A stretch of DNA of 64,000 nucleotides from Thiothrix litoralis (GTDB lineage: Bacteria; Pseudomonadota; Gammaproteobacteria; Thiotrichales; Thiotrichaceae), in NCBI RefSeq assembly GCF_017901135.1, contig NZ_CP072801.1, forward strand, positions 1,922,001 through 1,986,000, written 5' to 3'. Below the pieces are notes generated by a model that saw nothing but the letters and a program-made list of their open reading frames with translations, did not search any database and had not been told where the DNA came from. This document shows positions 28,864 through 44,245 of the stretch, one piece after another. The position numbers and the translations under genes are program-made. The stretch's first letter is position 1; every line of letters begins with the position of its first letter.

Positions 28864-30180
28864 TTATTTCCCCAATTTCATCAGCTTACCACTCTGCTTA
28901 TACGCCAACGTCTCCAGAATGATGCCGTTGGTGTTGGCAGTCAGCGCCTTATTGGGTTCACCGCTGACTTCATACACCCCGGAATACCAACCGCGTTCCG
29001 GGTCGGTTAACGTGGCGGCTTTATCCATTAGTTTCTGGGTGTAAGGCGTTTCGTAAAGCATGTGCCAGCCAAACGCCGCTTTGGTACTCAGGGTTTTGAA
29101 CTGGCTGGCATCCTCACCTTTTTCGGTGATCGCATTCCAAATTTTGCCATTGGTAAACACGGTGTTGTAAACAAAGTACGGCGGCTTATCGATATTGTCT
29201 TCCGATACAGCGGTGAGGATGCCGGTATCCTCAAAGCGTTTTTCCTGCACCTTGTAGACGCGCCATGCCAGTTCCTGCGACAGATGATCCCAACCGAATT
29301 CCACACCATCGAGAATGTACGGTTCGCTGACCACGTAGTTATGCGCCCCGTATTGCTGCGCACTGCGACTATCCGTTGCCACCTGAATGCCATCAATATC
29401 AACAAACGTGAGGAAATCGGTGTAACGCAAGGCATTAGCCACATCCAACCCCATCAGGTTGAAGGATTTCGCCGCGTATTCCTCATAACCCAAACGCCCT
29501 TCCTGAAGGTATTCGGTTTTGCCCGCAGCAGTAACCGCCGCACCTTGCAACGTACCTTTCACCAGCATCGGCTGCGTATCCCAACGTTCCATCACTTTTT
29601 TGACCGAAGCGGTATGCTGCGGGTAATTCCACGCCAACACATTCAGCGGAACCAATGCCCGCCCGATGTCGATCGCTGACCAACCAATCCCCTTTTCACT
29701 CGGCTGATTGGTGTAATCCACCATTTGCAGGGAAATCGTGTTGTAGGATTTGTTCGGCAGTTTGCCTTCAAACAGCGGCATTTTCGTCAGGGAATCCAGC
29801 GCCTTGGCAATACGCGTATCGAATTCGTTCTGGTCAATAATGCCCAAGCGCTGCGCCGCAATCACCGCCATCAGGTAGGACGAGGTATCCCACAAAGTCG
29901 AGGCATTATACTTATCCACCGAGTTCACTAGCCCAGTTTCCGGCATGGTATTGTTCTGGAAATAACGCCACGCCGTTTTCGCCCACGCCATTTCCTGCGC
30001 AGTCAGCGGACGCGTTGGAGCAATTTTCACATCCGCATTGGCCTCAATAATCGCCTCAGGCGTATTCGCATTGCCGACACTAAGCCCTTCCAACCAGCCA
30101 ACCAAACCAAACGCGGTGACTAACCCCGTCAAAAAAATCAAATGGCTACGCGCACGCACCAAGCTCTGTTTAAAACTCAT
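28864..30180 (-). CDS. DUF3131 protein, last gene of the polysaccharide operon
   Basis: 438 aa with one N-terminal membrane helix (LIFLTGLVTAFGLVGWLEG) and a periplasmic DUF3131 domain. Characteristic stretches are ASTLWDTSSYLMAVIAAQR, RLGYEEYAAKSF, YVVSEPYILDGVEFGWD and ANTNGIILETLAYK. DUF3131 resembles an alpha/alpha-barrel fold and is often found beside polysaccharide synthases, possibly acting as a glycoside-active enzyme; the activity is not established. Its start overlaps the glycosyltransferase stop by 4 bp. A paralog sits in the divergent operon at 39469-40917, which makes two copies per locus. Confidence 0.88.
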   Translation of the reverse strand: MSFKQSLVRARSHLIFLTGLVTAFGLVGWLEGLSVGNANTPEAIIEANADVKIAPTRPLTAQEMAWAKTAWRYFQNNTMPETGLVNSVDKYNASTLWDTSSYLMAVIAAQRLGIIDQNEFDTRIAKALDSLTKMPLFEGKLPNKSYNTISLQMVDYTNQPSEKGIGWSAIDIGRALVPLNVLAWNYPQHTASVKKVMERWDTQPMLVKGTLQGAAVTAAGKTEYLQEGRLGYEEYAAKSFNLMGLDVANALRYTDFLTFVDIDGIQVATDSRSAQQYGAHNYVVSEPYILDGVEFGWDHLSQELAWRVYKVQEKRFEDTGILTAVSEDNIDKPPYFVYNTVFTNGKIWNAITEKGEDASQFKTLSTKAAFGWHMLYETPYTQKLMDKAATLTDPERGWYSGVYEVSGEPNKALTANTNGIILETLAYKQSGKLMKLGK

Positions 30181-32048
30181 ACTGTCACCTCATTATTTTT
30201 ATATTGTTGGGGTTGAGCTACTTCCTCGGTAACGGCTTCTTCCGCATCTGGCTGCCAAAATGCTGCCATCACAATACCACTCAACGCCAGAATGTTATTC
30301 AAGCCCCAGAACAGATTGGTCAGAATACCCCCCATCGAATAATCGTGATTACCCAGCACAAAAAATTGCACGCTAGCGTAAACAATCCCCAATACCGTCA
30401 ATACAATCACCGCAAATTGTGGCAGCACCAGATGGAAAAAATTGCCCTCTTGCCGGTCTTTCGGCGTCACCGGGAATTTGATCTGTTCACCTTTCAATAC
30501 CGTCCAAATCGCTTGCAAGTTAACCGGGAAAAACGACAAGTAACTCGCCTTGGAACGGTAGCCCGCAACGCCCCACGTCCCCACCATGAAGGCCAGCTCC
30601 ATCGCAATCAGGAACGGCAGGATGTGCAGAAAAAAGTCCCCAGTGTAAGCACTCACCGGCGCAATGCCACTAAACAGGTAAATCAACGGTGCGACCAGAA
30701 ACATCATGTTCCAGATACCGCCGAGGTATGACCACGCGGTTGCCCCATACATCAACCGTTGCGCCCAACTCATGCCCTTACGCGTTATCGGATTATCATG
30801 CGCCACGATGTCCAGCGTGCCACCTGCGTATTTGAAGCGTTGCACCGTCCAGCTCAACAAGTCTTGCGGCGACAACATTTTGGACTCGACGGCCGGGTGC
30901 AGTACCGATTTCCAATGACGATCCTCATCCGAATGCAGCACGATAGAGGTATAAATATCTTCGGAAACGTGGAAACGGTAGGGGGTAAATTCTTCCTCAC
31001 CCGCCACCTGATGGCGCATTTCCTGCACCAAACCGCTATCCAGCGCTTCTCCACCCATCAATTTCTGCAACTGTTTGGACTGCTTGCCCACCTGCTTTTC
31101 GATGGTGTCGGAATAGGTTTTGAGCGCGGCTTCCATCACCGCTTCACGACGGTGGATCGAACCAGCCCCGCAACAAAACGACGCATTCGCCCAGTTACGG
31201 CGGCGCTGGATAATGTCGTAAAACATTTTTGGCTCATTCACGAACGGGTCTTCGCCAACGCGCAGTTCGCCGATCACCGCTTCCACGCCTTTGCCGATCC
31301 AACGCCCCGGTGCTTTCAGGTATTTACCCAATACATCCGGCAAACGCTTGCCTTCCGGCAGATCGAAGAACCATTGCGGGGTTTGTACCCATGCCACATC
31401 CGGGTCACGGAAATAGCCCAGCGTGTGTTCCAGAATAGTGGGGAACGGGCGGGTATCCGCGTCACAAATCACGATGAAATCACCGTGAGTCTGTTCCATC
31501 GCATTGCGCAAATTGCCTGCTTTGAAACCGATATTGCTGGTGCGGGTGATGTAACCGACGCCCTCTTCTTCCGCCACCTGACGCATGGCAGGACGTTTGC
31601 CATCATCCAGCACGAAAATTTTCAGGTCAATCGCGTGTGGATACGTCACTTTTTTGGCATCGCGGATGCTCAGGCGTACCAGTTCCACGTCTTCGTTGTA
31701 GCTGGGGAAAAACACATCCACCTTCAACGGACGTTCTTCGCCATGACCGGGGCGCACCACCTCGTCGAGTTTAGCGGGCGGTGGCAATTGCTCGTAATCC
31801 TGCACTTTCCACAAGTTGAACACGAACAAACCCAAGCCAAAATACGACGCGGTTTCCGCAAACGCCAAAGGAATGGCGTACCACAAGGCATCCGGGTTAA
31901 GCGAATCCGTCCAGCGCCACCACAAATACCATGCACCTAACGTCAGGGCGATAACCGCGAAAAATTGCCAAATGCTCTCCGTAACCGCCGAATATGCCAG
32001 CGGCGGCTCAGGTTTGCGCTCTTCAAACTTGTCGAAATAGAATCCCAT
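30177..32048 (-). CDS. BcsA-like family 2 glycosyltransferase (processive polysaccharide synthase)
   Basis: Inner-membrane synthase of 623 aa. Two helices precede the catalytic domain, and a bundle of about five follows from residue 430 onward. GT2 motifs are in order: VLDDGKRP, ICDADTRP, VSEDIYTS (the catalytic Asp region) and the QRFKYAGG gating motif in the place of QxxRW. No C-terminal PilZ domain is visible, so c-di-GMP activation of the bacterial-cellulose kind is unlikely in this chain. It is coupled to GH2 upstream (12-bp gap) and DUF3131 downstream. The product polymer is unknown; a sheath, holdfast or biofilm glycan is inferred. Confidence 0.9.
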   Translation of the reverse strand: MGFYFDKFEERKPEPPLAYSAVTESIWQFFAVIALTLGAWYLWWRWTDSLNPDALWYAIPLAFAETASYFGLGLFVFNLWKVQDYEQLPPPAKLDEVVRPGHGEERPLKVDVFFPSYNEDVELVRLSIRDAKKVTYPHAIDLKIFVLDDGKRPAMRQVAEEEGVGYITRTSNIGFKAGNLRNAMEQTHGDFIVICDADTRPFPTILEHTLGYFRDPDVAWVQTPQWFFDLPEGKRLPDVLGKYLKAPGRWIGKGVEAVIGELRVGEDPFVNEPKMFYDIIQRRRNWANASFCCGAGSIHRREAVMEAALKTYSDTIEKQVGKQSKQLQKLMGGEALDSGLVQEMRHQVAGEEEFTPYRFHVSEDIYTSIVLHSDEDRHWKSVLHPAVESKMLSPQDLLSWTVQRFKYAGGTLDIVAHDNPITRKGMSWAQRLMYGATAWSYLGGIWNMMFLVAPLIYLFSGIAPVSAYTGDFFLHILPFLIAMELAFMVGTWGVAGYRSKASYLSFFPVNLQAIWTVLKGEQIKFPVTPKDRQEGNFFHLVLPQFAVIVLTVLGIVYASVQFFVLGNHDYSMGGILTNLFWGLNNILALSGIVMAAFWQPDAEEAVTEEVAQPQQYKNNEVTV

Positions 32049-32060
32049 AGCAACTCATTT

Positions 32061-34262
32061 TTATTGTTGTGATTGGAGGGTGAAGCGGTATTCATTCGTG
32101 CTTAACAATGCCCCTTTAGCATCAAGAATGCTGGCTTCAAGGCGATACTCACCGGCTTCAGTTGCCGGTACTCGGTAATCGTGCAAGTGCTGGTGCATAT
32201 CCGCGCTCAGCTCAAATGCCCACGTTTGCGTATCCAGCGTTTGCTTGCCGCATAACAGTTTGACCTGATACTGCGCTTGCGGGTAACTGGCGGTGCTGTC
32301 ATTCAATGCCCATAAGCCCACGCTGACAGACTCGCCTGTTTTATAGTCAACCTTGTTCCAAGCCAGACTCGGCAAAATCGGTTGGTAGGCACGTTGCAAA
32401 GCGTAATAGCCCGGTTTGGGTTTACGCCAGAAATCTACCATACCCCAATTCATCGAAGGCCAATCTTCCACCAGCATAAACTGGAACAGCGCCCCCACCG
32501 GACGATAGGCTTGCCGACGGTAAGATTCTGCCGCAAGCTGGTTTAACCGCGCCTGATATTGCTGGGTATTGGTGATAAATTCATCCAGCGTTTTGCCTTG
32601 CGGAACTTTGGCAATCTCTAGGGTTTCCTTGCGTTGGAAATTGTGGAATGCCCATTCCTGCCACTGTGCATCCGTCGTGGGTAGTTCCGCCTCATGTCCC
32701 AGAATTTTGCTCAACGTAGCCTTATCGGGTAAAGCTTGCGCCCCGAATTCGGCAATGGTGGCGTGTTTGGTCGGTTTGGCATAATCCAGCCAGCTCCCGG
32801 AATACCAGCCCAGCCACGGGTGTTCCTTGGTCGAGGAAATCATGCTGATCGGACGGGTTTTCTCCAGCGCAACAGCAGCGCGATAGAGCTGATTATCCAG
32901 CACTTTGTTTTGCTGTGGGTCGTAATCCTTGTATTTCCACTTCATCCAGTCCGCATCCCATGGCGGTTCGTTGTGTAGTGTCCACTGAATAATGGAGGTG
33001 TATTGCCCGAACTGGCGGATCATGTCGCCCACTTGCAACACTGCTTGCTGCTGGAATTCCGGCGTATCCTGATACCCCCATTGCAGCGGGAAATCTTGCC
33101 ACACCATCAAACCCATTTCGTCGCACAGGCGGTAAAACTCTGGGGCGGTAACATGGGCATGAACCCGCACGGTGTTGATATGGGCGTCCAGCATCAACTG
33201 GATGTCACGGCGAAAATCTTCCGTTTTCATCTCAGCAAGCCACTGGTTGGCAATGTAATTAGTGCCTTTGAGCTGGATGCGCTGGTCGTTGATCGTCCAG
33301 ATTTCCTGCGGTGACTGGCGGACTTTGCGGAAGCCGATAGTGCGCTCGAAACTATCCAGCACCTTGCCGTTTTGTACTGCGCTGACGGTCAGCTTATAGA
33401 GGTTTGGGTCGCCGTAGCCGTGCGGATGCCAACGTTTGGGATTGGTGATGGGAATGGATAAAGAGGGCGTATGCAATACGCCCCTACGCGGGCATTGTAG
33501 GGGCGTATTGCATACGCCCTCTTCGGCAAACCCAACAGGTTCAACCGACCATTGCCACTCCGTACCCTGTGGCACTTTCCCCAACACATCCAGATCCACC
33601 GACACCAACCATTGTTCCAAGCCTTTGGTGGGCTGGACGCGGATTTGGCGCGGTGAAATTTGTACCTGCTGCGTCTGGCGCAAATTCACCTCACCCCAGA
33701 TACCGCCGGTATTACGCTCTTGCCCACGATCCGACCAAGCCCCACCGGGGCGCGTGTCGTGGTGCGAAAAAATGCCTTTGATCAAGCGTTTATGCAACGA
33801 ATAATCTTCCGCTTTTTCTTGCGGACTGTTCACCCTGACCAGCAAGGTATTCTCGCCAGCCTTCAGGTTCTGCGAAACATCGAACGAAAATTGCTGAAAA
33901 TAACCTTCATGTGACCCGATCTGCTTCCCGTTCAGCCATACATCCGCAAAGTAATCCACCCCGCCGAAATGCAGGGTAGACACCGTTTCTGAGGAAGTTT
34001 GCGCAGAAAACTTGAGCCGATACCACGCAACGCCATGATGATCATAGCCTTGGGTGTACCAGTTGGCGGGAACGTTGATGGCTTGCCATTGGGCATTCCC
34101 GGCGAGCATAGCTGCTGAACCAGAAGGCAGGAATTCCCACGTCCCAGCCAGTGAACCAGCAGGTGTGATGGCAACCGGCTGAACGGACGGCATCACACTG
34201 CACCCCTGCAATAGCAGGAGTAACACCGTCATCACTACGCCGACAGCCCGTTGCATCGTCAA
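32061..34262 (-). CDS. Glycoside hydrolase family 2 lipoprotein with an in-frame palindromic insertion
   Basis: 733 aa. The signal sequence ends at a lipobox (LLLLQGCSVM). GH2 domains follow in order: sugar-binding (GVAWYRLKFSAQ), immunoglobulin-like, and TIM barrel with acid/base IIQWTLHNEPPWD and nucleophile region IAEFGAQALPD. The family includes beta-galactosidases, glucuronidases and mannosidases; the specificity cannot be told. Residues about 247-267 (EEGVCNTPLQCPRRGVLH) are encoded by a 61-bp palindromic repeat that the gene reads through, in the Ig-like domain. The start overlaps the anti-sigma-type gene's stop by 4 bp. It probably trims or edits the polymer made by the adjacent synthase. 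Confidence 0.88.
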   Translation of the reverse strand: MTMQRAVGVVMTVLLLLLQGCSVMPSVQPVAITPAGSLAGTWEFLPSGSAAMLAGNAQWQAINVPANWYTQGYDHHGVAWYRLKFSAQTSSETVSTLHFGGVDYFADVWLNGKQIGSHEGYFQQFSFDVSQNLKAGENTLLVRVNSPQEKAEDYSLHKRLIKGIFSHHDTRPGGAWSDRGQERNTGGIWGEVNLRQTQQVQISPRQIRVQPTKGLEQWLVSVDLDVLGKVPQGTEWQWSVEPVGFAEEGVCNTPLQCPRRGVLHTPSLSIPITNPKRWHPHGYGDPNLYKLTVSAVQNGKVLDSFERTIGFRKVRQSPQEIWTINDQRIQLKGTNYIANQWLAEMKTEDFRRDIQLMLDAHINTVRVHAHVTAPEFYRLCDEMGLMVWQDFPLQWGYQDTPEFQQQAVLQVGDMIRQFGQYTSIIQWTLHNEPPWDADWMKWKYKDYDPQQNKVLDNQLYRAAVALEKTRPISMISSTKEHPWLGWYSGSWLDYAKPTKHATIAEFGAQALPDKATLSKILGHEAELPTTDAQWQEWAFHNFQRKETLEIAKVPQGKTLDEFITNTQQYQARLNQLAAESYRRQAYRPVGALFQFMLVEDWPSMNWGMVDFWRKPKPGYYALQRAYQPILPSLAWNKVDYKTGESVSVGLWALNDSTASYPQAQYQVKLLCGKQTLDTQTWAFELSADMHQHLHDYRVPATEAGEYRLEASILDAKGALLSTNEYRFTLQSQQ
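33462..33522. repeat. 61-bp palindromic (REP/MITE-like) element inside the GH2 gene
   Basis: Two perfect 26-bp arms (33462-33487 and 33497-33522) flank a 9-nt centre. The arms begin AGAGGGCGTATGCAATACGC. Palindromes with a GGGCGTATGCAATACGCCC core are, to my knowledge, dispersed in many genomes. Here the element is translated rather than disruptive. Transposase-mobilised spread is inferred. Confidence 0.92.
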
Positions 34263-34690
34263 CCCAACTGCTTGCTGACGTGCAAGTGGTTGCCCTTGGC
34301 ATCAATGCTGTAACGGATGGAATCTGCCAGCAAATGGATCAAACCCATGCCCCAACCACCTTCCGGCAAATCTTCCGGGTTAGGCATATCGCGTGCTTCG
34401 GAATGCACGGCTTCCGGCATGGTATGCCCGCTGTCAGAGATGATCAGGTGTACGGCTGCCGGGCTGTAGTCGACCCGCACCTGTACATCATTGCCACCCT
34501 GCATTTGGTAAGCATGTTCGATGACGTTGTTGACAGCTTCCACCATCATCAATTCGAGCTGCCCCAGCTTGTCGTCGGAAAGTTCCAGTTCCTTGCCGAT
34601 GCCCCGTAGCGCACCGGAAAGTACCCGCACCTGTTCCAGACGGCTGTCGATGGAAAGGCGGATATTGTATTGTTTATACTCGGTTTCCAT
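34259..34690 (-). CDS. Anti-sigma-type ATP-binding protein (RsbW/HATPase family)
   Basis: 143 aa, cytoplasmic GHKL ATPase of the serine-kinase type that partners STAS proteins. Visible are the N-box MVEAVNNVIEHAYQ, the G1-like DSGHTMPE, and the GGWGMGLIHLLAD motif. In partner switching, such kinases phosphorylate and inactivate the STAS protein and bind a target. The gene's ATG shares one base with the stop of a 32-aa ORF (TGATG). Its stop overlaps the GH2 start (ATGA). No sigma factor is encoded nearby, so the target may be a non-sigma effector. Confidence 0.88.
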   Translation of the reverse strand: METEYKQYNIRLSIDSRLEQVRVLSGALRGIGKELELSDDKLGQLELMMVEAVNNVIEHAYQMQGGNDVQVRVDYSPAAVHLIISDSGHTMPEAVHSEARDMPNPEDLPEGGWGMGLIHLLADSIRYSIDAKGNHLHVSKQLG

Positions 34691-34788
34691 CAGGCTGCCT
34701 CCGCTTCTTCAAACCGCCCCTCGTAGGCACCCGGCATTTCGTTGGTAATGGAGCGCACCCGCGTCCCCTTCCCTGCTATCGCTTTCAT
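34690..34788 (-). CDS. 32-aa ORF between STAS and anti-sigma genes
   Basis: ATG at 34788 is preceded by a very strong ribosome site (GAGGAGGGGC on the minus strand). The ORF encodes MKAIAGKGTRVRSITNEM and then an acidic tail FEEAEAA. Its TGA overlaps the next gene's ATG in TGATG, so its translation should feed directly into the anti-sigma-type gene. The protein has a basic N-terminal half and acidic C-terminal half, with no hydrophobic segment. The strong start signal and perfect coupling argue for real translation. Whether the peptide itself has a role, or only the act of translating it, is unknown. Confidence 0.6.
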   Translation of the reverse strand: MKAIAGKGTRVRSITNEMPGAYEGRFEEAEAA

Positions 34789-34824
34789 AGAAGCCCCTCC
34801 TCTCAAATACACGGTAAGCCCACA

Positions 34825-35163
34825 TTACGCCGCCACTGCACCCAGTGCTGCATCCACGCTATCCGCCATGCGGAAGACGCGATCCATACGGGTCAGTTTG
34901 AACAGGTCGGCAACGATGCCTTTTGCGCCAACGATGATCAGATCACCACGGTTGCCGACCATTTTCAGTAGGCTGACCAGTGCGCCAAGGCTGCTACTGT
35001 CCATGAAAGTCACGGCGCTGAGATCCAGCACGATGCGGGTCGCGCCATCATCCAGTAACTGGGCAATCTGTTGTTTGAGTTCGGGGGCTACGGCGGCATC
35101 CATACGGGTTTCGCCAATGACCGCAACGGTGAATTCACCTTGGGTGTGAGTAGAGAGTTTCAT
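34825..35163 (-). CDS. STAS-domain anti-anti-sigma factor
   Basis: 112 aa, a stand-alone STAS domain of the SpoIIAA/RsbV type. Its phosphorylation loop is LSAVTFMDSSSLGALV, where the serine after Asp is the expected phosphosite. GAGGA precedes the start at a good distance. It is the middle element of the partner switch: phosphorylated by the anti-sigma-type kinase, dephosphorylated by the PP2C protein encoded upstream. Only the 36-bp gap and the small ORF lie between it and the kinase gene. Confidence 0.92.
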   Translation of the reverse strand: MKLSTHTQGEFTVAVIGETRMDAAVAPELKQQIAQLLDDGATRIVLDLSAVTFMDSSSLGALVSLLKMVGNRGDLIIVGAKGIVADLFKLTRMDRVFRMADSVDAALGAVAA

Positions 35164-35247
35164 TCTTGTTGTCCTCTTGGTTTGATGTTGTCTTGCATTT
35201 ATAGTAATAATTATTAAATAAACTATATCTATAATTAAGGGTTTTAG

Positions 35248-36456
35248 CTAGCCACAGAAGTCAATGATTAGCAGGGAAATATCATCCGGCTTGTCATCAT
35301 CCTCCCTACCCAGCCCCAACTGCTCACCCAACTGGGAAACAAGCTGACGAGCAGGCAGGCCGCTCAACGCCTGTAAACGCTCCTGCAAATCATCTTCGGT
35401 CATGGGATCACCTGATGGATGCTGCAATTCCAGGATACCGTCAGAGTACAAAATAAAACGACTACCGGGTGGAAATGGCAGATCAATGGTTTCATATTCC
35501 ATGTCCGGTAATAGCCCAATCGGGAAACCGGTACACTCGATTCGCTCAACCTGCTGGGTGGCGGGGTTATACAGGAAAGGTTGCGGATGTCCTGCCTGTA
35601 CGAAATACAAACGTTCGTCTACCGTATCCACTACGCCCATGATCAGGGTCAAGTAATGGTCTCCGGTATCCAGCACATGATTCAAGTGATGATTCAGATT
35701 CTCCGCCAAACGCGCCGGGAAACTTGCCGCATTCGCTCGCGTCAGTTCATCCATGCAATACAGTTCGCCCGTTGAACTGAGTAAGGTTTGCAAACACATC
35801 GACAGCAAGGCGGCGGAAATGCCATGCCCCGACACATCAATGGAATAGAAAAACAGCAATTCATCATTGATCGGAAAGTAGTTAAAAGTATCGCCACCAA
35901 TGTACTGGGCAGGCTGGAAAAACCAATCAACACACAAGCGCCCCAAGCTCTTTTGGATCGGCAACACCCCGGTTTGCAAGGTAGCCGCCCGCTTCAAATC
36001 ACTCTGGATCAATGCCTGTGCCGCTGACAAGGATTGATTGACACTTCCCAGATGGCGGTTCTTTTCCTCAAGCGTCTTTTCCAGATTCAGCACACGCTGA
36101 GCCGCACGCAAGCGCACTTCCAATTCTTCACGCACGATAGGTTTGGTGGAAAAATCATCCGCGCCAGCATCCATGCCCAGAATCAGGTTTTGCCTGCCCG
36201 ACATACCCGTCAGTAAAATGATGTAAACGTAGTGCGGTAACTCGGCGGAACGGATCGTTCGACACAAGGTTGGGCCATCCATGACAGGCATTACCCAATC
36301 ACTGATCACTACTTGGAAATTATGTTTCTGGAGCAGCTCCCATGCTTCCTGACCATGGTCAGCTAGCACCACCTGATGTCCCATCAGGGTCAGGATGCGA
36401 CGTAGGATTAACTGCATATCTCTGGCGTCATCGACAACTAGGATGTTCATGCTCAT
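35248..36456 (-). CDS. Response regulator fused to PP2C phosphatase (RsbU/SypE-like)
   Basis: 402 aa. The N-terminal receiver has DD at 9-10, the phospho-acceptor Asp53 in VISDWVMPVMDG, and the conserved lysine in DFSTKPIVREE. A short coiled coil (about 130-155) links to a SpoIIE-type PP2C domain with YIGGDTFNYFP, SIDVSGHGISAALLS and FILYSDGILE. It is predicted to dephosphorylate the STAS protein when its receiver is phosphorylated. The Hpt protein encoded divergently, 151 bp away, is the obvious phosphodonor. In Vibrio fischeri, SypE/SypA are an analogous polysaccharide switch. Confidence 0.92.
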   Translation of the reverse strand: MSMNILVVDDARDMQLILRRILTLMGHQVVLADHGQEAWELLQKHNFQVVISDWVMPVMDGPTLCRTIRSAELPHYVYIILLTGMSGRQNLILGMDAGADDFSTKPIVREELEVRLRAAQRVLNLEKTLEEKNRHLGSVNQSLSAAQALIQSDLKRAATLQTGVLPIQKSLGRLCVDWFFQPAQYIGGDTFNYFPINDELLFFYSIDVSGHGISAALLSMCLQTLLSSTGELYCMDELTRANAASFPARLAENLNHHLNHVLDTGDHYLTLIMGVVDTVDERLYFVQAGHPQPFLYNPATQQVERIECTGFPIGLLPDMEYETIDLPFPPGSRFILYSDGILELQHPSGDPMTEDDLQERLQALSGLPARQLVSQLGEQLGLGREDDDKPDDISLLIIDFCG

Positions 36457-36551
36457 ATATTGTTTTTATGCGGTTATTAACACTCGAATAGTTCTATGCT
36501 AACATCAAAATATAAATTGTCGATATAGATAGAAATTATAAAAAACACAAT

Positions 36552-36583
36552 TCCGGCAAGTGGTACTTTTGAGACGTGCCGGA
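36552..36583 (+). promoter_or_regulatory. Leader hairpin in the shared promoter region
   Basis: TCCGGCA (36552-36558) pairs with TGCCGGA (36577-36583) around an 18-nt loop, 24 bp before the hpt start. It lies in the 151-bp A/T-rich gap that must hold the promoters of both divergent operons. It could be a transcribed leader structure or an operator; no canonical promoter is obvious. Confidence 0.4.
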
Positions 36584-36607
36584 TAAATAAACCAGTGGGT
36601 AATAACG

Positions 36608-36964
36608 ATGACAACGATGACACACACCCCCGTTGACGAAGAAACCTATAGCCAGTTGCAAGAAATTATGGCAGATGAGTTCGCCGAACTGATTGGCCTT
36701 TTCACCACAGATACCGAGCAGTGTCTTATTACGCTAAAACAATGTGTTGCAACACAAGATAGCCCGCAGGTCGGTGCGCTTTGCCACAAACTCAAATCCA
36801 GTAGCAAGCTCATTGGTGCTTTTAGGTTAGCGGAATTTGCCCACTTACTGGAAGACTATCGTGAAAACAATGACCATCAAGCCGCAGCGCTCCATTTAAG
36901 CCAGTTACAAGCTGAATATACCCAAGTTCTCGAATGGCTTAAACAACAAGCAATTGCCGTTTAA
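36608..36964 (+). CDS. Histidine phosphotransfer (Hpt) protein
   Basis: 118 aa, a single four-helix Hpt domain. The phospho-acceptor His60 lies in LCHKLKSSSKLIGAF, the canonical HxKSSS context. It carries phosphate from the receiver of a hybrid kinase to a final receiver. Both partners are adjacent: the hybrid kinase two genes downstream and the receiver-PP2C protein in the divergent operon. The start MTTMTHTPVDEE could alternatively be the fourth residue. Confidence 0.92.
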   Translation: MTTMTHTPVDEETYSQLQEIMADEFAELIGLFTTDTEQCLITLKQCVATQDSPQVGALCHKLKSSSKLIGAFRLAEFAHLLEDYRENNDHQAAALHLSQLQAEYTQVLEWLKQQAIAV

Positions 36965-37009
36965 TTAAACAGTACAAATAAATCACAACAATAACAACGG
37001 GAATACCGC

Positions 37010-37558
37010 ATGAAAGGTTTAGTGTTTACGGAGTTCATGGAAATGGTGGAACAGACCTTTTCCGCCGATATGGTTGACGACATTATTGAAGCATCCGACC
37101 TGCCCTCCGGGGGTGCTTACACCACTGTCGGCACTTACCCACACTCCGAAATGGTTACGCTGGTACAGAGCCTTTCCAAACAAACGGGAATGCCCGTTCC
37201 TGCGTTGGTCAAAGCCTTTGGGCAGTATCTTTTCGGGCGCTTTGTGGTGCTTTACCCGACATTCTTCACCAACAGCCCGGATATGTTCGATTTTCTCGAT
37301 TCCATCGAAAACTACGTTCATGTGGAAGTACGCAAACTTTACCCGGATGCCCAACTACCCACCTTTGAAACCCGCCGTGAAGGCTCACAAAAACTGATCA
37401 TGATCTACCGTTCGCAACACCCGTTTGCCACTCTAGCGGAAGGGCTAATCGAAGGCTGCATCAACCACTACCAAACCAAAGCACAGATTGAAGTAGTGGA
37501 TTGTTCCGCAGGCAAGGGCACACATGTTGAATTCCACATCACCCGGATGACAGCCTAA
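37010..37558 (+). CDS. hnoX: H-NOX heme-binding gas sensor
   Basis: 182 aa, cytoplasmic heme NO/O2-binding domain. The proximal heme ligand is His104 in [16 protein letters not shown], and the N-terminus [14 protein letters not shown] is typical. The YxSxR propionate-clamp reads YRSQH (133-137), with His in place of Arg. The position matching the O2-stabilising tyrosine of thermophile H-NOX (five residues after that Arg) is Leu142, so NO rather than O2 binding is predicted. The stop shares one base with the hybrid kinase ATG. H-NOX proteins normally inhibit the kinase encoded next to them when NO binds. Confidence 0.94.
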
Positions 37559-38895
37559 TGATTGATCAGCTAACCCGTCTGGAACGCCGTCTGGAACGCG
37601 AGCGCCGCGCCCGTAAACAGGCTGAGCAGTTACTGGAAAGCAAAAGTCTGGAGCTGTATCAAGCCAACCACGAATTGCGGGCGGTAGCCAGCTCTCTGGA
37701 AAATACGATTACCACACGCACTCAGGAATTGACCGAAGCCCGCGATCAGGCACTTTCTGCCAGCCGCTCCAAAAGCGCGTTTCTGGCAGCCATGAGTCAT
37801 GAAATCCGCACACCGATGAACGGCATCATCGGCATGGCGACGCTATTGCAAGACACCCCATTAAGCCCCGAACAAAGCCAGCAACTCGACACTGTGCTGC
37901 AATCTGCACAATCCTTGCTGGGCATTATCAACGACATTCTCGACATTTCACGGCTGGAAGCAGGCAAATTGGAAGTACTGGAAGAACCCTTCCAACTCTG
38001 TAGCATCCTGCCCAATATCATCGATACCATGCGCACTGTTGCCAGCCAGAAACAACTAGAACTGGTGCTGAGCGTGGAGAAAAATATTCCCACGAACTTA
38101 TGTGGCGATGCCCTGCGCTTACGCCAAATCTTGCTCAACCTGATCAGCAATGCCATCAAATTCACCACCGCTGGGCAAGTCACGGTACGGGTATCCCGCT
38201 CCCAGGCGAATACCAAAACATTACGCTTTGAAGTACAAGACAGCGGTACGGGCATTTCCCCGGAAAAACTCAACAGCCTGTTCCACGCTTTCAGCCAAAT
38301 CAGCCGCTACGATCAGCACAATAACGGCGGTGCCGGGCTGGGTCTGGCGATCAGCCGCAAACTGGCTAACCTGATGGGTGGCACGATCGGCGTACACAGC
38401 ACTGAAGGTGTCGGCAGCACCTTCTGGTTTGAATTACCCATCATCGCAGACTCTACCGGGTTAGCTTCCTCAGCCCAGCCAGACATACCCATGAAGCCAT
38501 CAACCCCTATCGCAGATGGCGGTAATCAACGCGTCCTCGTGGTGGAAGACCATAAAGTCAACCAGATGGTTGCCAAAGGAATGCTCGCCAAACTCGGTTA
38601 TCACTTCACCTTGGCAGAAAACGGCTTCGAGGCACTCGACTGCTTACGTCGTGAAGATTTTGCATTGGTGTTGATGGACATCCAGATGCCCGGCATGAGC
38701 GGCGTGGAAACCACTGAAAAAATCCGCGCCGAATTCCCGGATCGTCACCTGCCCATCATTGCCCTGACCGCCAATGCCATGAAGGGCGACGAACAAGCCT
38801 ATATAGCTGCGGGCATGAATGCCTGCCTGACCAAACCCATCCAGATCAACACCCTAGCAACCACACTTGAGGCGTGGTGTTTGGTCACTGCCTGA
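37558..38895 (+). CDS. Soluble hybrid histidine kinase, H-NOX-associated (HnoK-like)
   Basis: 445 aa with no membrane segment or sensor domain of its own. An N-terminal coiled coil (about 5-70) leads to HisKA with His81 in [16 protein letters not shown], then a HATPase ([29 protein letters not shown]). A C-terminal receiver (about 325-445) holds [13 protein letters not shown] and [13 protein letters not shown]. The lack of an input domain fits control in trans by H-NOX, whose stop overlaps this start. The attached receiver needs an Hpt carrier, which is two genes upstream. Confidence 0.93.
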
Positions 38896-38954
38896 GATAG
38901 GCACAACACCCTAATACATAACAAAAAATAATAGCAAAGGGGGTAATACCGCCA

Positions 38955-39476
38955 ATGAACCACTTTCAACATGTCGTGCTCAGCATGTCGCTGGTGCTGA
39001 TCAGCTACCTGGTATTCCAGAACCAACAACTACGCGCCGAAATACAGGTGCTCACCACGTTACAGCAAGGCTCATCCACCGTGCTGGCAGAAACGCTTGC
39101 ACCCCTTGCAATCAAAATTGATGCGATTAACGCCGTCACCAGCAAACAGGGCAAAGCAGCCGATGAAGCCGAAAAAAAGCAGCAAGCCTTAGCCAAGCAA
39201 CGCAGTGAGTTGAGCAATATCCTCGCCACACTCAAACAAGCCAATCAGTTACGCACCGACGGTAAAGGCAAAGAAGCGGCTGAAAAACTTGCCAGCGCCA
39301 AGAAACCGATCTGGCAAGCAGGCGACACCCTCACCGCGCAAAAAACCCGCCTGCAAGCGCTGATGGGGCCGATCGACAAATTCATGGCGGCCTGGAAAAG
39401 CGGTGACACCAGCACTGCGCCCGACGCTGTAAGCAAGGAAATCGAAGCTGTCCTAGGGGAGCTGGGTCATGAATAA
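38955..39476 (+). CDS. Membrane-anchored coiled-coil protein, unknown
   Basis: 173 aa. One N-terminal membrane helix (VVLSMSLVLISYLVFQNQQL) precedes a long Ala/Lys/Glu/Gln-rich region predicted to be coiled coil. The rest is probably periplasmic. It overlaps the DUF3131 gene start by 8 bp, so it belongs to the hpt-hnoX-kinase operon. It could tether or space components of an export complex. No family is recognised. Confidence 0.7.
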   Translation: MNHFQHVVLSMSLVLISYLVFQNQQLRAEIQVLTTLQQGSSTVLAETLAPLAIKIDAINAVTSKQGKAADEAEKKQQALAKQRSELSNILATLKQANQLRTDGKGKEAAEKLASAKKPIWQAGDTLTAQKTRLQALMGPIDKFMAAWKSGDTSTAPDAVSKEIEAVLGELGHE

Positions 39477-40917
39477 CCATAAACTCAAAACAGGGTTGGC
39501 TTGGCTGACAGGTTTGCTGCTGGCTGGCCTCATCATTTTTTTCAGCAACCGCAGCGCACCGTCGGTAACGACTAACGTTGCCAGCGACTCCCCCAGCCTG
39601 TTGCAAATGCTGAAAACAGGCTCGACTTCTGGGCGCAACGACACCTTCTGCGCCCTCACCACCGGCCCGGACAACAGTTGTTTGGGCAATCCCCAAGCCC
39701 TGTGCAGCACCGACATGGAAATGGCACAAATCGCCTGGAAATACTTTGAAAACAACTATAACCCGGAAACCGGGCTGTACAACGCTGCCGATAAATACCC
39801 CTCCACCACCATGTGGGATACCGGCTCAGCACTCGCTGCCACCATTGCCGCCCGTGATTTCGGCCTGATTGATGACAAGGATTTTGATGAGCGCGTCCGC
39901 GCCATGTTCAAAACCCTCAACAGCATGGAGCTGTTCAACAAAGAAGCACCCAACAAAGTATATCACGCCATCAAAGGTGAAATGGTCGATTACCGCAACC
40001 AGCCAACGCCCGATGGTATTGGCGTTTCCGCACTGGATTTGGCGCGGTTAGTGTCATGGCTGAATACCCTCAGTTGTATGCACCCGCAATACGCCAACCC
40101 CGCCAAACAAGTCATCAAACGCTGGGATATGAAACGCCTGATCAAAGACGGACAAATGTTTGGCCTGTATCGTGACCCGGTATCTAAAAATATGGTCGTG
40201 GCACAAGAAGGCCGCTTAGGATATGAGCAATACGCAGGCAAGATTTTCCGCAAGCTCGGCTATGACCAACACGTCGCTGCCACCTATAACAACGAATTCC
40301 GTACAAGCATCAATATTTATGACGTACCAATTGCTTATGACCGACGTGACCCGCGTGATTTAGGCGCATACAACTACGTTGTTACCGAATCGTATGCGAT
40401 GGATGCGATTGAAAACGGCATTGACGCTGAAAACCGCCCGCTGCTGGACAATATTTACAAAGTCCAAAAACGCCGCTGGGAAGAAACCGGGATTGTTACC
40501 GCCGTTTCCGAAGACAATATCGACCAGAAACCGTACTTCCTCTACAACACCATATTTACCGCTGGCTTGCCGTGGAACACCACCACCGACAAGGGCGTGC
40601 GTTACGACAGCCTCAAAACCACCTCGGTAAAAGCCGCGCTCTCCATGGCCTTGCTCTACCCGGCTGACCCTTACAGCAAGGAATTGGCCTACACCGTCAA
40701 CTCTGCCTATAACCCGGATCGTGGCTGGTACTCAGGCATTTACGAAAGTGGCGGTGGCTACAACAAGGCCATTACTGCCAATACCAACGGCATCATCATG
40801 AGCCTGCTGCTGTACAAAAAATATGGCGAATTCCACCCCATGTGCGAACGCTGCCAGCGCGAGATAAAGACAGACGCCATTCCTGCCAGAACGTGCGATG
40901 TCTGCGCCACTCAATAA
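39469..40917 (+). CDS. DUF3131 protein with a Cys4 C-terminal tail
   Basis: 482 aa, a paralog of the protein encoded at 28864-30180. One N-terminal membrane helix is followed by a DUF3131 domain with STTMWDTGSALAATIAARD, RLGYEQYAGKIF, YVVTESYAMDAIENGID and ANTNGIIMSLLLYKKYG. Unlike the paralog, it ends in HPMCERCQREI and TCDVCATQ, two CxxC pairs suggesting a small zinc or disulfide knuckle. The next gene begins within its last 20 bp. One DUF3131 copy therefore lies at the end of each divergent operon. Confidence 0.87.
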   Translation: MNNHKLKTGLAWLTGLLLAGLIIFFSNRSAPSVTTNVASDSPSLLQMLKTGSTSGRNDTFCALTTGPDNSCLGNPQALCSTDMEMAQIAWKYFENNYNPETGLYNAADKYPSTTMWDTGSALAATIAARDFGLIDDKDFDERVRAMFKTLNSMELFNKEAPNKVYHAIKGEMVDYRNQPTPDGIGVSALDLARLVSWLNTLSCMHPQYANPAKQVIKRWDMKRLIKDGQMFGLYRDPVSKNMVVAQEGRLGYEQYAGKIFRKLGYDQHVAATYNNEFRTSINIYDVPIAYDRRDPRDLGAYNYVVTESYAMDAIENGIDAENRPLLDNIYKVQKRRWEETGIVTAVSEDNIDQKPYFLYNTIFTAGLPWNTTTDKGVRYDSLKTTSVKAALSMALLYPADPYSKELAYTVNSAYNPDRGWYSGIYESGGGYNKAITANTNGIIMSLLLYKKYGEFHPMCERCQREIKTDAIPARTCDVCATQ

Positions 40918-42679
40918 GTTTTTACTGCTCTCTTTGGGTGGGGGGGTATTGGTTACGCCAGCGATGGCGTATGACCCCCCGCCGCCCTTACAACAAAAAC
41001 TGCACGCGCTGCAATGTGCGACAGATGCCAAGTCAGCCCAGGAAATCCTCAAAACCTTGAACAATATTACTCCACCCGGTCAGCAGTGGCCGGATGAATG
41101 GCTAGGGCAAAAATCGGAGCCTTCTCTCCATGCCGGGTTGCTGGATATTGCCTTGGATACCTTAAAATCCACCGCCGAACGCTTCCCCGACTTGCGGGAA
41201 GAAGCCGAACGGATCGCCTTGCAATGGGGCTACTGCGAGGTGCTGGAAGATCAGAAACTTCACGATCTGATCTTGCGGCAAAAAAAGCTGTACAAGATGC
41301 TGGCGGCGGATGAAACACCGCTGAAGTCGAAAGGCTTCCGCGAATGGGGATTTTTAACACCCGATCCAGCCAAACGCTTTGTGCCCAAACTGCTGGATGA
41401 AATCCGCATCGCACCCGAAGCTTACCACCTGTTTCTACACGAAATTTACCGCAAACGCTGTTTCCCACACCCGGCAACCGGCCTATTGGTCAGTGAGGCA
41501 GAAGCCCCTTCGGCGGCGGTATCCAATCACGCTTTAACCCTGACCGAAATACCGGAAGAAATTGCCCAAGCTTACCCGTTCAAATGGGACAACACCTGTC
41601 AGGTGATCCCTGCTAAACAACCGGCAACGTCACAGAAAAAGGCTCTCCCCAACACAAAGGAGGCAGCCACCACCAAAACCAAAGCAACTCTCCCCAAAAA
41701 AACGGCAGAGAAAACCAGCAAAGTACCGTTGGCATCCAATAAAGCTGAACGCAAAAAACAGCGTGAGATACGGCAGCAAACCCGACAGGCACAACAGCAA
41801 AGCCGGGAAACGCAAGTGACGCCAACCACTTCACCGCCGCTCATACTGTCCCTGCCAACACCCACGCCCCCTTCACAAGCTGCGTTGGGTGCAAAAGGAG
41901 AGGTTGGCAAAGCTGCCCCCCCGCCAACGCTGCACACGGCAAAAGAGCAGATGAACCTGCCAGCCGTTATTCCGATAGCGGCGGGTGGCGATATTCCCAT
42001 ATACATCGAAGACGAGGAGAAAACAGCATCTGCTAACCAACAAGCTCATAGCACCACCGGCATTATTGGTACTGATAAAAACAGGAAAAACAACAGCAAG
42101 AAAAAGAAGTTACGGCTGGCAGGCAGCTTTGCCAACACCGTTTCACTCAAGGATGGTAAAAACAGTTTATCTGCCAGTGCCACTTGGTCACCCAAACCCA
42201 ACTGGTTTGTCAGCGGCAATGCCTCGCTCAAGGAGGGCGAAATGGGGTATTCGTGGAGCGCGGGCTACGCAGATTATAAACCGGGCGGTATGTCAGCACA
42301 GGTCAACAACTGGGGGCCGATCAAACCGGGCGAAGGCTTGGCACTGGACAAGGCAGTGGTCAATATTGGCAAAAAAATTAAATCGGAAAAACTCACCAAA
42401 CACAAACTGGCGGCCTCCACCAACCTGAGCATTCCCGTCAAGGGCAAGCGCAGCCTTAGCGGCACCATGCAATGGAACCCCAAACCCAACGTATACACCC
42501 GAGCCACTGCCAGCGTACCCCTCGAAGGCGGCAAGCCGAACTGGAATTATGTGGTCGGCTATTCCAGCCCCAAACCGGGTGGCGTAAAGATCGAATATGC
42601 CAACTACGGCAAAAACCAGTTCCCCGGCGACAACCTGAAAGATGGCGCGATTACGGTGAGCCGGAGCTGGCAGTTTTAA
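40898..42679 (+). CDS. Secreted protein with beta-rich C-terminus, possibly outer-membrane
   Basis: 593 aa. A signal peptide (FLLLSLGGGVLVTPAMA) is followed by a charged N-terminal domain (about 30-215) and a long Lys/Ala/Thr/Gln linker (about 240-350). The C-terminal 190 residues are built from repeating short strands (NSLSASATWSPKPNWFVSGN, SLSGTMQWNPKPNVYTRATA). It ends in VSRSWQF; a terminal Phe is typical of outer-membrane barrels. Export of the polymer or surface anchoring is inferred from its operon. No named family is recognised. Confidence 0.7.
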   Translation: MSAPLNKFLLLSLGGGVLVTPAMAYDPPPPLQQKLHALQCATDAKSAQEILKTLNNITPPGQQWPDEWLGQKSEPSLHAGLLDIALDTLKSTAERFPDLREEAERIALQWGYCEVLEDQKLHDLILRQKKLYKMLAADETPLKSKGFREWGFLTPDPAKRFVPKLLDEIRIAPEAYHLFLHEIYRKRCFPHPATGLLVSEAEAPSAAVSNHALTLTEIPEEIAQAYPFKWDNTCQVIPAKQPATSQKKALPNTKEAATTKTKATLPKKTAEKTSKVPLASNKAERKKQREIRQQTRQAQQQSRETQVTPTTSPPLILSLPTPTPPSQAALGAKGEVGKAAPPPTLHTAKEQMNLPAVIPIAAGGDIPIYIEDEEKTASANQQAHSTTGIIGTDKNRKNNSKKKKLRLAGSFANTVSLKDGKNSLSASATWSPKPNWFVSGNASLKEGEMGYSWSAGYADYKPGGMSAQVNNWGPIKPGEGLALDKAVVNIGKKIKSEKLTKHKLAASTNLSIPVKGKRSLSGTMQWNPKPNVYTRATASVPLEGGKPNWNYVVGYSSPKPGGVKIEYANYGKNQFPGDNLKDGAITVSRSWQF

Positions 42680-43093: not shown

Positions 43094-44245
43094 TCATCGA
43101 GAACAGGACAACGACACCGAAATGCCATCACCGCTAACATTCTCTCCAAAGGCTAACACCGCCAGCCCGGCGGCTAAAATGTTACGTGCTGCATTCACGT
43201 CACGGTCGTGGGTTGCGCCACATTCCGGGCATTCCCAAGACCGCACGGCCAGCGGCATGTTTTCTTTCACGAAACCGCAGCCGTTACAGCGTTTGCTGGA
43301 AGGAAAGAAACGGTCGATTTCGACATACGTCCTGCCTGCCCAGTGGGCTTTGTATTCAAGCTGGCGGGTGAATTCCCCCCAACTCGCATCGGCAATGTGC
43401 TTGGCTAATGTTGGGTGTTTAATCATGTTTTTCACAGCGAGGTTTTCAGCGCAAACGACTTGGTTCTCGTTAATCAGTTTGCGGGACAGCTTGTGCAAGT
43501 TGTCCGACCGGCAATCGGAGATCTTCGCGTGAACACGGGCAACGTTGCGTTTAGCTTTCAGCCGATTCTTGCTGCCGAATTTCTTCTTGGCAAGACGGCG
43601 TTGATACTTCGCCAGTTTAACCGCGTGTTGGGCGGTATGGCGGGGATTGCCGGACTTGAAGCCGTCGCTAGTGACGAACAAATCCTTGATGCCCACGTCA
43701 ATGCCAGCCTTTTTGTTGGTGACGGGCAACAGCGTGGATTCAAATTCACACAAGCAGGACACGAAGTAGCGTCCGGCCTGATCTTTGGACACGGTGACAG
43801 TGGTCGGGGCAGCAGGAAGTGGCTGGCTCCATCGAATGTTCAGCGGCGCATCGCACTTCGCCAGCTTCAATTCACCGTTGCGGTATGTAAAAGCACGGTA
43901 AGTAAATTCTGCCGACTGTCGGTGCTTTTTGGATTTGAAGACAGGGTATTTTGCCCTGCCCTCAAAAAAGTTCTTGAACGCGGTTTGTTGGTTCCGCAAG
44001 CATTGTTGCAGCGGAACACTGGAAACGTCGTTCAGAAAAAGCCGTTCAGGCAGCTTCTTGATGGCGGTCAACCGCGCATTAGCACCCAGGTAACTGACCT
44101 TTTCCTGAGCCTGATCGTAAGCATCCGTGCGGTAACGCAAAATGCTGTTGTACACGTAACGCACACAACCAAACGTCTGCGCCAGCAACTTTTCTTGTTG
44201 CGGGTCTGGGTAAAACCGGAATTGGTAGGCGCGTTTCGTTGGCAT
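43094..44245 (-). CDS. tnpB: TnpB RNA-guided nuclease, intact
   Basis: 383 aa, full length. It has the N-terminal helix-turn-helix/OrfB region (YQFRFYPDPQQEKLLAQTFG), a RuvC-like nuclease and a zinc ribbon. The catalytic residues are visible: Asp183 in AGIDVGIKDLF, Glu267 in VVCAENLAVKNM, and the final Asp in THDRDVNAARNIL. The zinc ligands are in CNGCGF and CPECG. TnpB proteins cleave DNA with a guide RNA made from the element's end and help retain the element. With no tnpA here, movement would need a transposase supplied in trans. Confidence 0.95.
   Translation of the reverse strand: MPTKRAYQFRFYPDPQQEKLLAQTFGCVRYVYNSILRYRTDAYDQAQEKVSYLGANARLTAIKKLPERLFLNDVSSVPLQQCLRNQQTAFKNFFEGRAKYPVFKSKKHRQSAEFTYRAFTYRNGELKLAKCDAPLNIRWSQPLPAAPTTVTVSKDQAGRYFVSCLCEFESTLLPVTNKKAGIDVGIKDLFVTSDGFKSGNPRHTAQHAVKLAKYQRRLAKKKFGSKNRLKAKRNVARVHAKISDCRSDNLHKLSRKLINENQVVCAENLAVKNMIKHPTLAKHIADASWGEFTRQLEYKAHWAGRTYVEIDRFFPSSKRCNGCGFVKENMPLAVRSWECPECGATHDRDVNAARNILAAGLAVLAFGENVSGDGISVSLSCSR

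Follow-up and report, generated by a model that had tools for sequence, protein, structure and literature searches.

In Thiothrix litoralis and its relatives, a family of filament-forming sulfur bacteria, a nitric oxide (NO)-responsive phosphorelay probably connects to a partner switch, and the switch in turn gates cellulose-synthase-like machinery for an exopolysaccharide. The genes lie in a 64,000-nucleotide stretch of T. litoralis DNA, here called the window (positions 1,922,001 to 1,986,000 of the single 4.28 Mb contig, genome G000), in which two operons diverge from a region of 151 nucleotides. The left operon codes for a response-regulator phosphatase with receiver and PP2C domains (REC-PP2C), a STAS protein, an RsbW-like serine kinase, a GH2-family glycoside hydrolase (GH2), a family 2 glycosyltransferase (GT2) and a DUF3131 protein (DUF3131a), in that order. 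The right operon codes for an Hpt phosphotransfer protein, an H-NOX haem sensor, a hybrid histidine kinase, a small protein (hyp173), a second DUF3131 protein (DUF3131b) and orf593. That the H-NOX relay and the partner switch form one unit is well supported by their linkage across the family. The features, in window coordinates, are as follows.

28864-30180, minus strand: DUF3131a, with an N-terminal helix and a predicted alpha/alpha barrel, glucanase-like (Pfam PF11329, 1.3e-152; AlphaFold2 (AF2) model; Foldseek)
30177-32048, minus strand: GT2, cellulose-synthase-like catalytic subunit without a PilZ domain (Pfam; PDB 7lby_A, 1.5e-41)
32061-34262, minus strand: GH2-family glycoside hydrolase, a variable operon member (Pfam)
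34259-34690, minus strand: RsbW-like serine kinase (HATPase_c_2; Pfam, 4.3e-23)
34732-34791, minus strand: remnant of a nucleotidyltransferase gene (tblastn with the L038 protein)
34825-35163, minus strand: STAS protein with an MDSSSLG motif (Pfam, 1.3e-19)
35248-36456, minus strand: REC-PP2C (SpoIIE) response-regulator phosphatase (Pfam)
36457-36607, no strand: divergent intergenic region with conserved blocks (alignment of relatives' intergenic regions)
36608-36964, plus strand: stand-alone Hpt phosphotransfer protein (Pfam, 1.4e-12)
37010-37558, plus strand: H-NOX haem NO sensor (HNOB; PF07700, 2.6e-42; PDB 6ocv_A, 6.3e-40)
37558-38895, plus strand: hybrid histidine kinase, HisKA-HATPase-REC, no input domain found (Pfam)
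38955-39476, plus strand: hyp173, a small protein of the polysaccharide operon (no Pfam hit; relatives adjoin DUF3131b in many loci)
39469-40917, plus strand: DUF3131b (Pfam, 1.6e-129)
40898-42679, plus strand: orf593, possible outer-membrane protein with C-terminal beta strands (AF2; no Pfam hit)

Gaps between genes range from -20 to +134 nucleotides within both operons. The kinase start overlaps the end of hnoX by 1 nucleotide, as for a cognate kinase in the H-NOX operon. Gaps of 59, -8 and -20 nucleotides carry the right operon beyond the kinase into hyp173, DUF3131b and orf593, and so both operons lead into likely polysaccharide genes. The original prediction, made by a model from the sequence of the window, had named Hpt, H-NOX, a hybrid kinase lacking an input domain, receiver-PP2C, STAS, an anti-sigma-type kinase, GH2, GT2 and DUF3131; Pfam recovers every one of these domains and finds no input domain in the kinase. 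The interval that it gave, 34259-38895, was right in its genes and too short in its extent, as the operons reach 28864 and 42679. Its right operon of Hpt, H-NOX and kinase was correct as far as it went and missed the second DUF3131 gene and the possible outer-membrane barrel.

We surveyed 63 genomes of the family; an order-level search returned the same 63. H-NOX is encoded in 33 of them. A REC-PP2C match was present in 31, and after that of G033 was dropped (receiver only, residues 3-145) 30 orthologues remained, the G009 copy being truncated where its contig stops. In 25 of the 33 H-NOX genomes no more than 12 kb separate H-NOX from REC-PP2C; chance would place the two this close in about 0.6% of genomes of 4 Mb. 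The two genes are adjacent with Hpt between them in 19 genomes (15 in clade g1, window included, and four in clade g8) and 5.7-11 kb apart on one contig in six (G001, G012, G018, G028, G029 and G034). In three further genomes (G009, G010 and G033) H-NOX is close to GT2 and/or DUF3131a and the contig stops short of PP2C, and the H-NOX contig of G032, at 5.6 kb, is too short to judge linkage. Three gene orders were found: Hpt, H-NOX and kinase divergent from PP2C (19 genomes), H-NOX and kinase downstream of DUF3131a, PGI and a Tll0287-type kinase (three genomes), and H-NOX and kinase convergent with DUF3131a (three genomes). Presence of H-NOX also tracks REC-PP2C, with H-NOX in 28 of 30 genomes having a PP2C orthologue versus five of 33 without one (Fisher p 1.2e-10, a descriptive value because it ignores relatedness and missing contigs). 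GT2 and REC-PP2C occur together in 29 of the 63 genomes; GT2 stands alone in G010, at a contig end, and PP2C alone in G056. The proposal that the two halves belong together, for which co-occurrence in relatives had been named as the check, is supported by these counts.

Outside the family, linkage of this kind was absent from the class sample. Of 370 class genomes, 26 encode H-NOX, and two of these (G000 and G039) are family members. SpoIIE domains are encoded somewhere in 17 of the other 24; by coordinates none of the 24 has one within 15 kb of H-NOX, a count that a few cases could escape as some contigs are short. We mapped 19 H-NOX regions from 18 of these genomes (G341 has three H-NOX places and G326 two, of which one each was mapped), and no H-NOX/PP2C/polysaccharide set was seen in them. 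The nearest case is G064 (L160), where a protein matching REC-PP2C at 43 bits adjoins the kinase; SpoIIE has a single match in that genome, and it lies on a different contig. GT2 is found outside the family in one of the 370 genomes (G180, 45% identity) with DUF3131 adjacent, and the 20 kb of that region show no match to PP2C, STAS or H-NOX. Chance adjacency of the two halves is rejected by the family-wide linkage together with this control.

REC-PP2C and STAS keep their motifs, and RsbW is more variable. In an alignment of REC-PP2C from the window and the relatives' loci, from which rows under 350 residues were excluded, all 30 rows retain D9, D10, D53, T83 and K105 as well as the GGD, SGHG, SDG and PDD motifs. 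The STAS serine motif reads MDSSSLG or MDSSGLG in all 30 rows, and the N box of the RsbW-like kinase is recognisable in 31 of 31; its G boxes vary. With a PP2C phosphatase, a STAS protein carrying a phosphoserine motif and a HATPase_c_2 kinase all present, the locus has the content of an RsbU/V/W-type partner switch. Pfam finds only Response_reg and SpoIIE in REC-PP2C and the HATPase is a separate gene, unlike the HsbR/SypE type. A nucleotidyltransferase gene sits between STAS and RsbW in many relatives from the genus. The window genome has lost it except for the 20-codon remnant (residues 3-22 of the L038 protein, 75% identity, E 3.8e-7 against the gap and 0.001 against the whole window), and the best match of the L038 nucleotidyltransferase in this genome is at 35% identity.

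The genes that follow point to a polysaccharide. GT2 resembles BcsA in its catalytic core, with a match to 7lby_A and the DDG, DAD and SED motifs aligning with those of BcsA (PDB 7lby, 4hg6). It differs from BcsA in having no PilZ domain by Pfam scan, DUF3131 neighbours, a TIGR03030 score of 228 bits that is below the cut-off of 699, and QRFKY in place of QxxRW (QRFKYAGG in all 19 rows of at least 500 residues). DUF3131a is modelled as an alpha/alpha barrel with a predicted local distance difference test score (pLDDT) of 88.9. Its best Foldseek match is a beta-1,2-glucanase (E 2.5e-11, template-modelling (TM) score about 0.6, 14% identity), and the fold is also near the cyclisation domain of cyclic beta-1,2-glucan synthase (TM about 0.6, 10-14% identity). 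The product may be a beta-glucan-like exopolysaccharide. Residues 407-592 of orf593 are mostly strand in a model that is weak as a whole (pLDDT about 75 for that part, 61.8 overall), and orf593 is a possible candidate for the exporter. GH2 was not found in some relatives' loci, for example L050, L051 and L056. In L050 (G040) GT2 reads as two adjacent pieces, either a break or a sequencing error.

Between the two halves stands Hpt. Its His is kept in 27 of 27 aligned rows from the window and relatives. Hpt was called by Pfam in the window and L055, and genome-wide in seven genomes, and by phmmer (E < 1e-4) in the others. It lies within 230 nucleotides of REC-PP2C, and divergent from it, in 26 of 31 PP2C loci, the window and a second locus of G058 (L054) included. 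Because Hpt stays beside REC-PP2C even when H-NOX is 8.6-11 kb away (L055-L057) or was not found in the genome (L068, L069), gene position fits Hpt as the phosphate donor to the REC-PP2C receiver. In clade g5 we ruled out an Hpt fused to the H-NOX-linked kinases, as G028, G029 and G030 have two Hpt domains each (PF01627), neither beside H-NOX. One stand-alone Hpt is encoded elsewhere in each of these three g5 genomes searched.

The proximal His of the window H-NOX aligns with that of PDB 6ocv_A and is kept in 30 of 33 sequences from the window and relatives. The exceptions are G057, with R and a His two residues earlier, G039, with E, and G050, with R. Both G039 (99% complete) and G050 (100% complete) encode H-NOX with no PP2C orthologue and no GT2, and loss of the proximal His in these two is expected if haem sensing is kept for polysaccharide output.

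H-NOX may share the relay with other sensors. A FIST protein and a hybrid kinase are encoded between STAS and REC-PP2C in 10 of the 19 adjacent loci, and PF08495 scores over its cut-off at the locus in all 10 genomes. In L035, where Pfam was run on both proteins, the FIST protein has FIST_N and FIST_C (PF08495, PF10442) and the hybrid kinase beside it falls below the NCBIfam cut-offs for NahK (169.7 bits vs 400 for NF041832; 117.3 vs 1500 for NF041831). In G054 two reading frames together make up the FIST-linked kinase. NosP is itself a FIST protein, and the presence of FIST genes in the vicinity of hnoX has been reported (PMC8738867). Seven loci code for a kinase that matches the Tll0287-type one identified by Pfam in L055, and in four of them (L055, L056, L057 and L066) it lies immediately upstream of H-NOX; CxxCH can be read in the kinases of L055 and L041. 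Judged by gene position, several haem sensors may feed one relay. The second locus of G058 (L054, contig C26) is paralogous and codes for Hpt, REC-PP2C, STAS, the nucleotidyltransferase, RsbW, the FIST-kinase pair and a Tll0287-type kinase; neither H-NOX nor GT2 was found in its 19 kb stretch.

In the mechanism we propose, H-NOX would sense NO and restrain the adjacent hybrid kinase. Without NO, phosphate from the kinase would pass to its own receiver, to the adjacent Hpt and on to the REC-PP2C receiver. Phosphorylated REC-PP2C would dephosphorylate STAS, opposing the RsbW-like kinase, and unphosphorylated STAS would bind RsbW or the synthase complex so that polymer synthesis is allowed. With NO, kinase flux would fall, STAS would stay phosphorylated and less polymer would be made. 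The FIST-linked or Tll0287-type kinases of the same locus may feed the same Hpt. We infer the phosphotransfers, the effect of NO, its sign and the target of STAS and RsbW; the expected sign, with NO lowering polymer, is taken by analogy with HnoX, HahK and SypE of Vibrio fischeri and with HptB and HsbR of Pseudomonas aeruginosa. The arrangement suggests that NO controls the timing of polymer production.

A number of observations weigh against this mechanism. Besides G039 and G050, two of the four H-NOX genomes without a PP2C orthologue and GT2 keep the proximal His: G032 (64% complete) and G033 (56% complete), in which neither gene was found. The H-NOX of G033 still adjoins DUF3131a. The halves are on different contigs in G015 and G030; judging from the contig ends, no less than about 37 and 58 kb separate them. 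For G016 and G025 the search returned PP2C and no H-NOX, and the PP2C of G016 is also on a different contig from its GT2. In G056 (91% complete, locus L043) RsbW is degraded while H-NOX, Hpt, PP2C and STAS remain; GT2 was not found in this genome, nor any polysaccharide gene of the set in its locus. G057 keeps the locus with R at the His position of H-NOX. No Hpt was found beside PP2C in L058-L060 and L064, all of clade g5, or in L062 (G015), and the window genome holds another stand-alone Hpt. The H-NOX and PP2C trees are similar (distance r 0.91 over 27 shared genomes), so most of the linkage is due to inheritance, though it takes three gene orders. Pfam finds no sigma factor or other known target of RsbW in the 12 genes at 28864-42679. 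Haem binding by the window H-NOX is not guaranteed, because YxSxR, the propionate-binding motif of H-NOX proteins, is replaced by YRSQH.

A stricter form of the proposed mechanism dispenses with both a sigma factor and cyclic di-GMP (c-di-GMP). Two or three haem sensors (H-NOX, the NosP-like FIST protein and the Tll0287-type kinase) would converge via one Hpt on REC-PP2C, and STAS and RsbW would bind the PilZ-less BcsA-like synthase and gate it directly after translation. We put this forward tentatively, as a possibility.

The rival that survives best is a partner switch that regulates a sigma factor, of RpoS or flagellar type, in the manner of RssB or HsbR. NO would then shift a broad lifestyle programme in which the polymer is one gene set. 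The closest NCBIfam model of REC-PP2C is that of Pseudomonas RssB (NF045505, 140 bits over residues 2-398, well short of the cut-off of 700), and 3eq2_A is the closest solved chain. HsbR and HsbA are described as acting on RpoS and FlgM in P. aeruginosa (PMC6482189), and G056 keeps PP2C and STAS in a genome where GT2 was not found. However, the 12 scanned genes include no sigma factor, GT2 tracks PP2C through the family, and RsbW directly adjoins GH2 or GT2 in 26 of the 31 loci that hold it (it does not in L043, L054, L068 and L069, and L041 is cut at that point). We regard this rival as unlikely.

Less likely still is that the halves are neighbours without direct signalling, with H-NOX, its kinase and Hpt serving another regulator and the FIST-linked, Tll0287-type or other kinases serving the PP2C receiver. 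HptB of P. aeruginosa serves several orphan kinases (PMC5085249), and the four family genomes with H-NOX unlinked (G015, G030) or not found (G016, G025) fit such an arrangement. It accords poorly with linkage in 25 of 33 genomes through three orders versus none of 24 outside the family, with Hpt beside PP2C in most loci, and with loss of the haem His in the two near-complete genomes without PP2C and GT2. That H-NOX senses something other than NO, such as redox state or haem availability, is very improbable: other sensing modes have been proposed for H-NOX (PMC8738867) and YxSxH replaces YxSxR in 19 of the 21 g1 and g8 sequences, window included, versus YxSxR in 12 of 12 from g2, g3 and g5, but the proximal His is widely kept, and FIST and Tll0287-type genes within the locus suggest that haem and gas are what it senses.

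Pieces of the wiring proposed for the NO-responsive relay were already known, and for V. fischeri nearly all of it has been put forward as a model. The original prediction knew of no chain from H-NOX through a partner switch to polysaccharide. This no longer stands, as HnoX-HahK-SypF-SypE/SypA of V. fischeri shares the logic (PMC12369376), and so does NosP-NahK-HptB-HsbR-HsbA of P. aeruginosa. In V. fischeri, HnoX inhibits HahK, which acts via the Hpt of SypF and via LuxU (PMC12369376). SypF is modelled to act on SypG and SypE; SypE sets phosphorylation of the STAS protein SypA, and its phosphorylated form favours biofilm (PMC12369376). According to the same source the HnoX effect is fully SypG-dependent and the step from HahK to SypE is a model. 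Common to the syp system (PMC12369376, PMC8256260) and, in the proposed mechanism, to the Thiothrix locus are an H-NOX that restrains the hybrid kinase of its operon, an Hpt carrier, a response regulator that sets STAS phosphorylation and a biofilm polysaccharide as output. In V. fischeri the Hpt is a domain of SypF with LuxU as a second Hpt, SypE is described as a dual serine kinase and phosphatase, and SypG also controls transcription. Thiothrix encodes its Hpt and its serine kinase as two distinct proteins, has the halves next to each other and uses a BcsA-like GT2 as the likely synthase.

P. aeruginosa provides the same components in series: a haem NO sensor, a hybrid kinase, a stand-alone Hpt, a regulator phosphatase and a STAS protein. 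NosP inhibits NahK, which feeds HptB (PMC11784011). HptB controls HsbR and HsbA, and phosphorylated HptB activates the HsbR phosphatase (PMC5085249). It differs in that the sensor is NosP, kinase and phosphatase are joined in HsbR, the genes for the sensor kinases map elsewhere on the chromosome, and the outputs are FlgM/FliA, RpoS and HsbD/c-di-GMP (PMC5085249, PMC6482189). Like REC-PP2C, the RssB-type proteins of Pseudomonas, whose partner is RssC, lack a fused kinase, and theirs is the nearest full-length NCBIfam model; the score is far below its cut-off, and the Thiothrix locus adds a separate RsbW-like kinase and polysaccharide genes. HmpU/V/W of Nostoc punctiforme, from a hormogonium motility locus, likewise tie a partner-switch phosphatase, STAS protein and kinase to polysaccharide in a filamentous bacterium, and the passages on them in PMC8256260 do not mention an H-NOX or Hpt relay. 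H-NOX and RsbW/V are named as separate systems in PMC6473078, and the usual account of how NO controls biofilm polymers runs via c-di-GMP (PMC8738867).

None of the open-licence papers listed by our literature searches describes the combined H-NOX, partner-switch and polysaccharide locus. New here are the compact and conserved linkage, the presence of several haem-sensor genes per locus, the probable role of a PilZ-less cellulose-synthase-like enzyme as output, and the finding that two near-complete genomes lacking the output genes have also lost the haem ligand. A haem NO sensor is encoded in roughly half of the family genomes sampled, and most of these keep it beside a partner switch and a PilZ-less synthase. 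As the locus is compact, the route from H-NOX to STAS could be tested with one small set of proteins; in V. fischeri this route is a model mixed with transcriptional control. The locus is also a candidate control point for a Thiothrix polymer, with sheath, holdfast or rosette material as candidates.

The divergent intergenic region (36457-36607) has conserved blocks, GTTATTAACACTC and a TATGCTACCATCAA-like sequence, in many g1 genomes by alignment. Upstream of Hpt, at about 36551-36583, is an inverted repeat (TCCGGCA..TGCCGGA) whose arms, by eye, change together in L046-L048. A leader hairpin upstream of Hpt was considered and rejected, since the RNAalifold consensus of 11 sequences leaves the arms unpaired and has no covariation; no Rfam family reached its gathering score in the Hpt leader region. 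Elsewhere in the window, reading by eye, a 383-residue OrfB/TnpB-transposase-like protein with CxxC motifs is encoded at 43094-44245 on the minus strand, between orf593 and a dgt-like gene. Two similar proteins with signal-peptide-like starts are encoded in tandem at 10029-11840 and 11976-13625, and the first of them has a long TPVS repeat ahead of its C-terminus.

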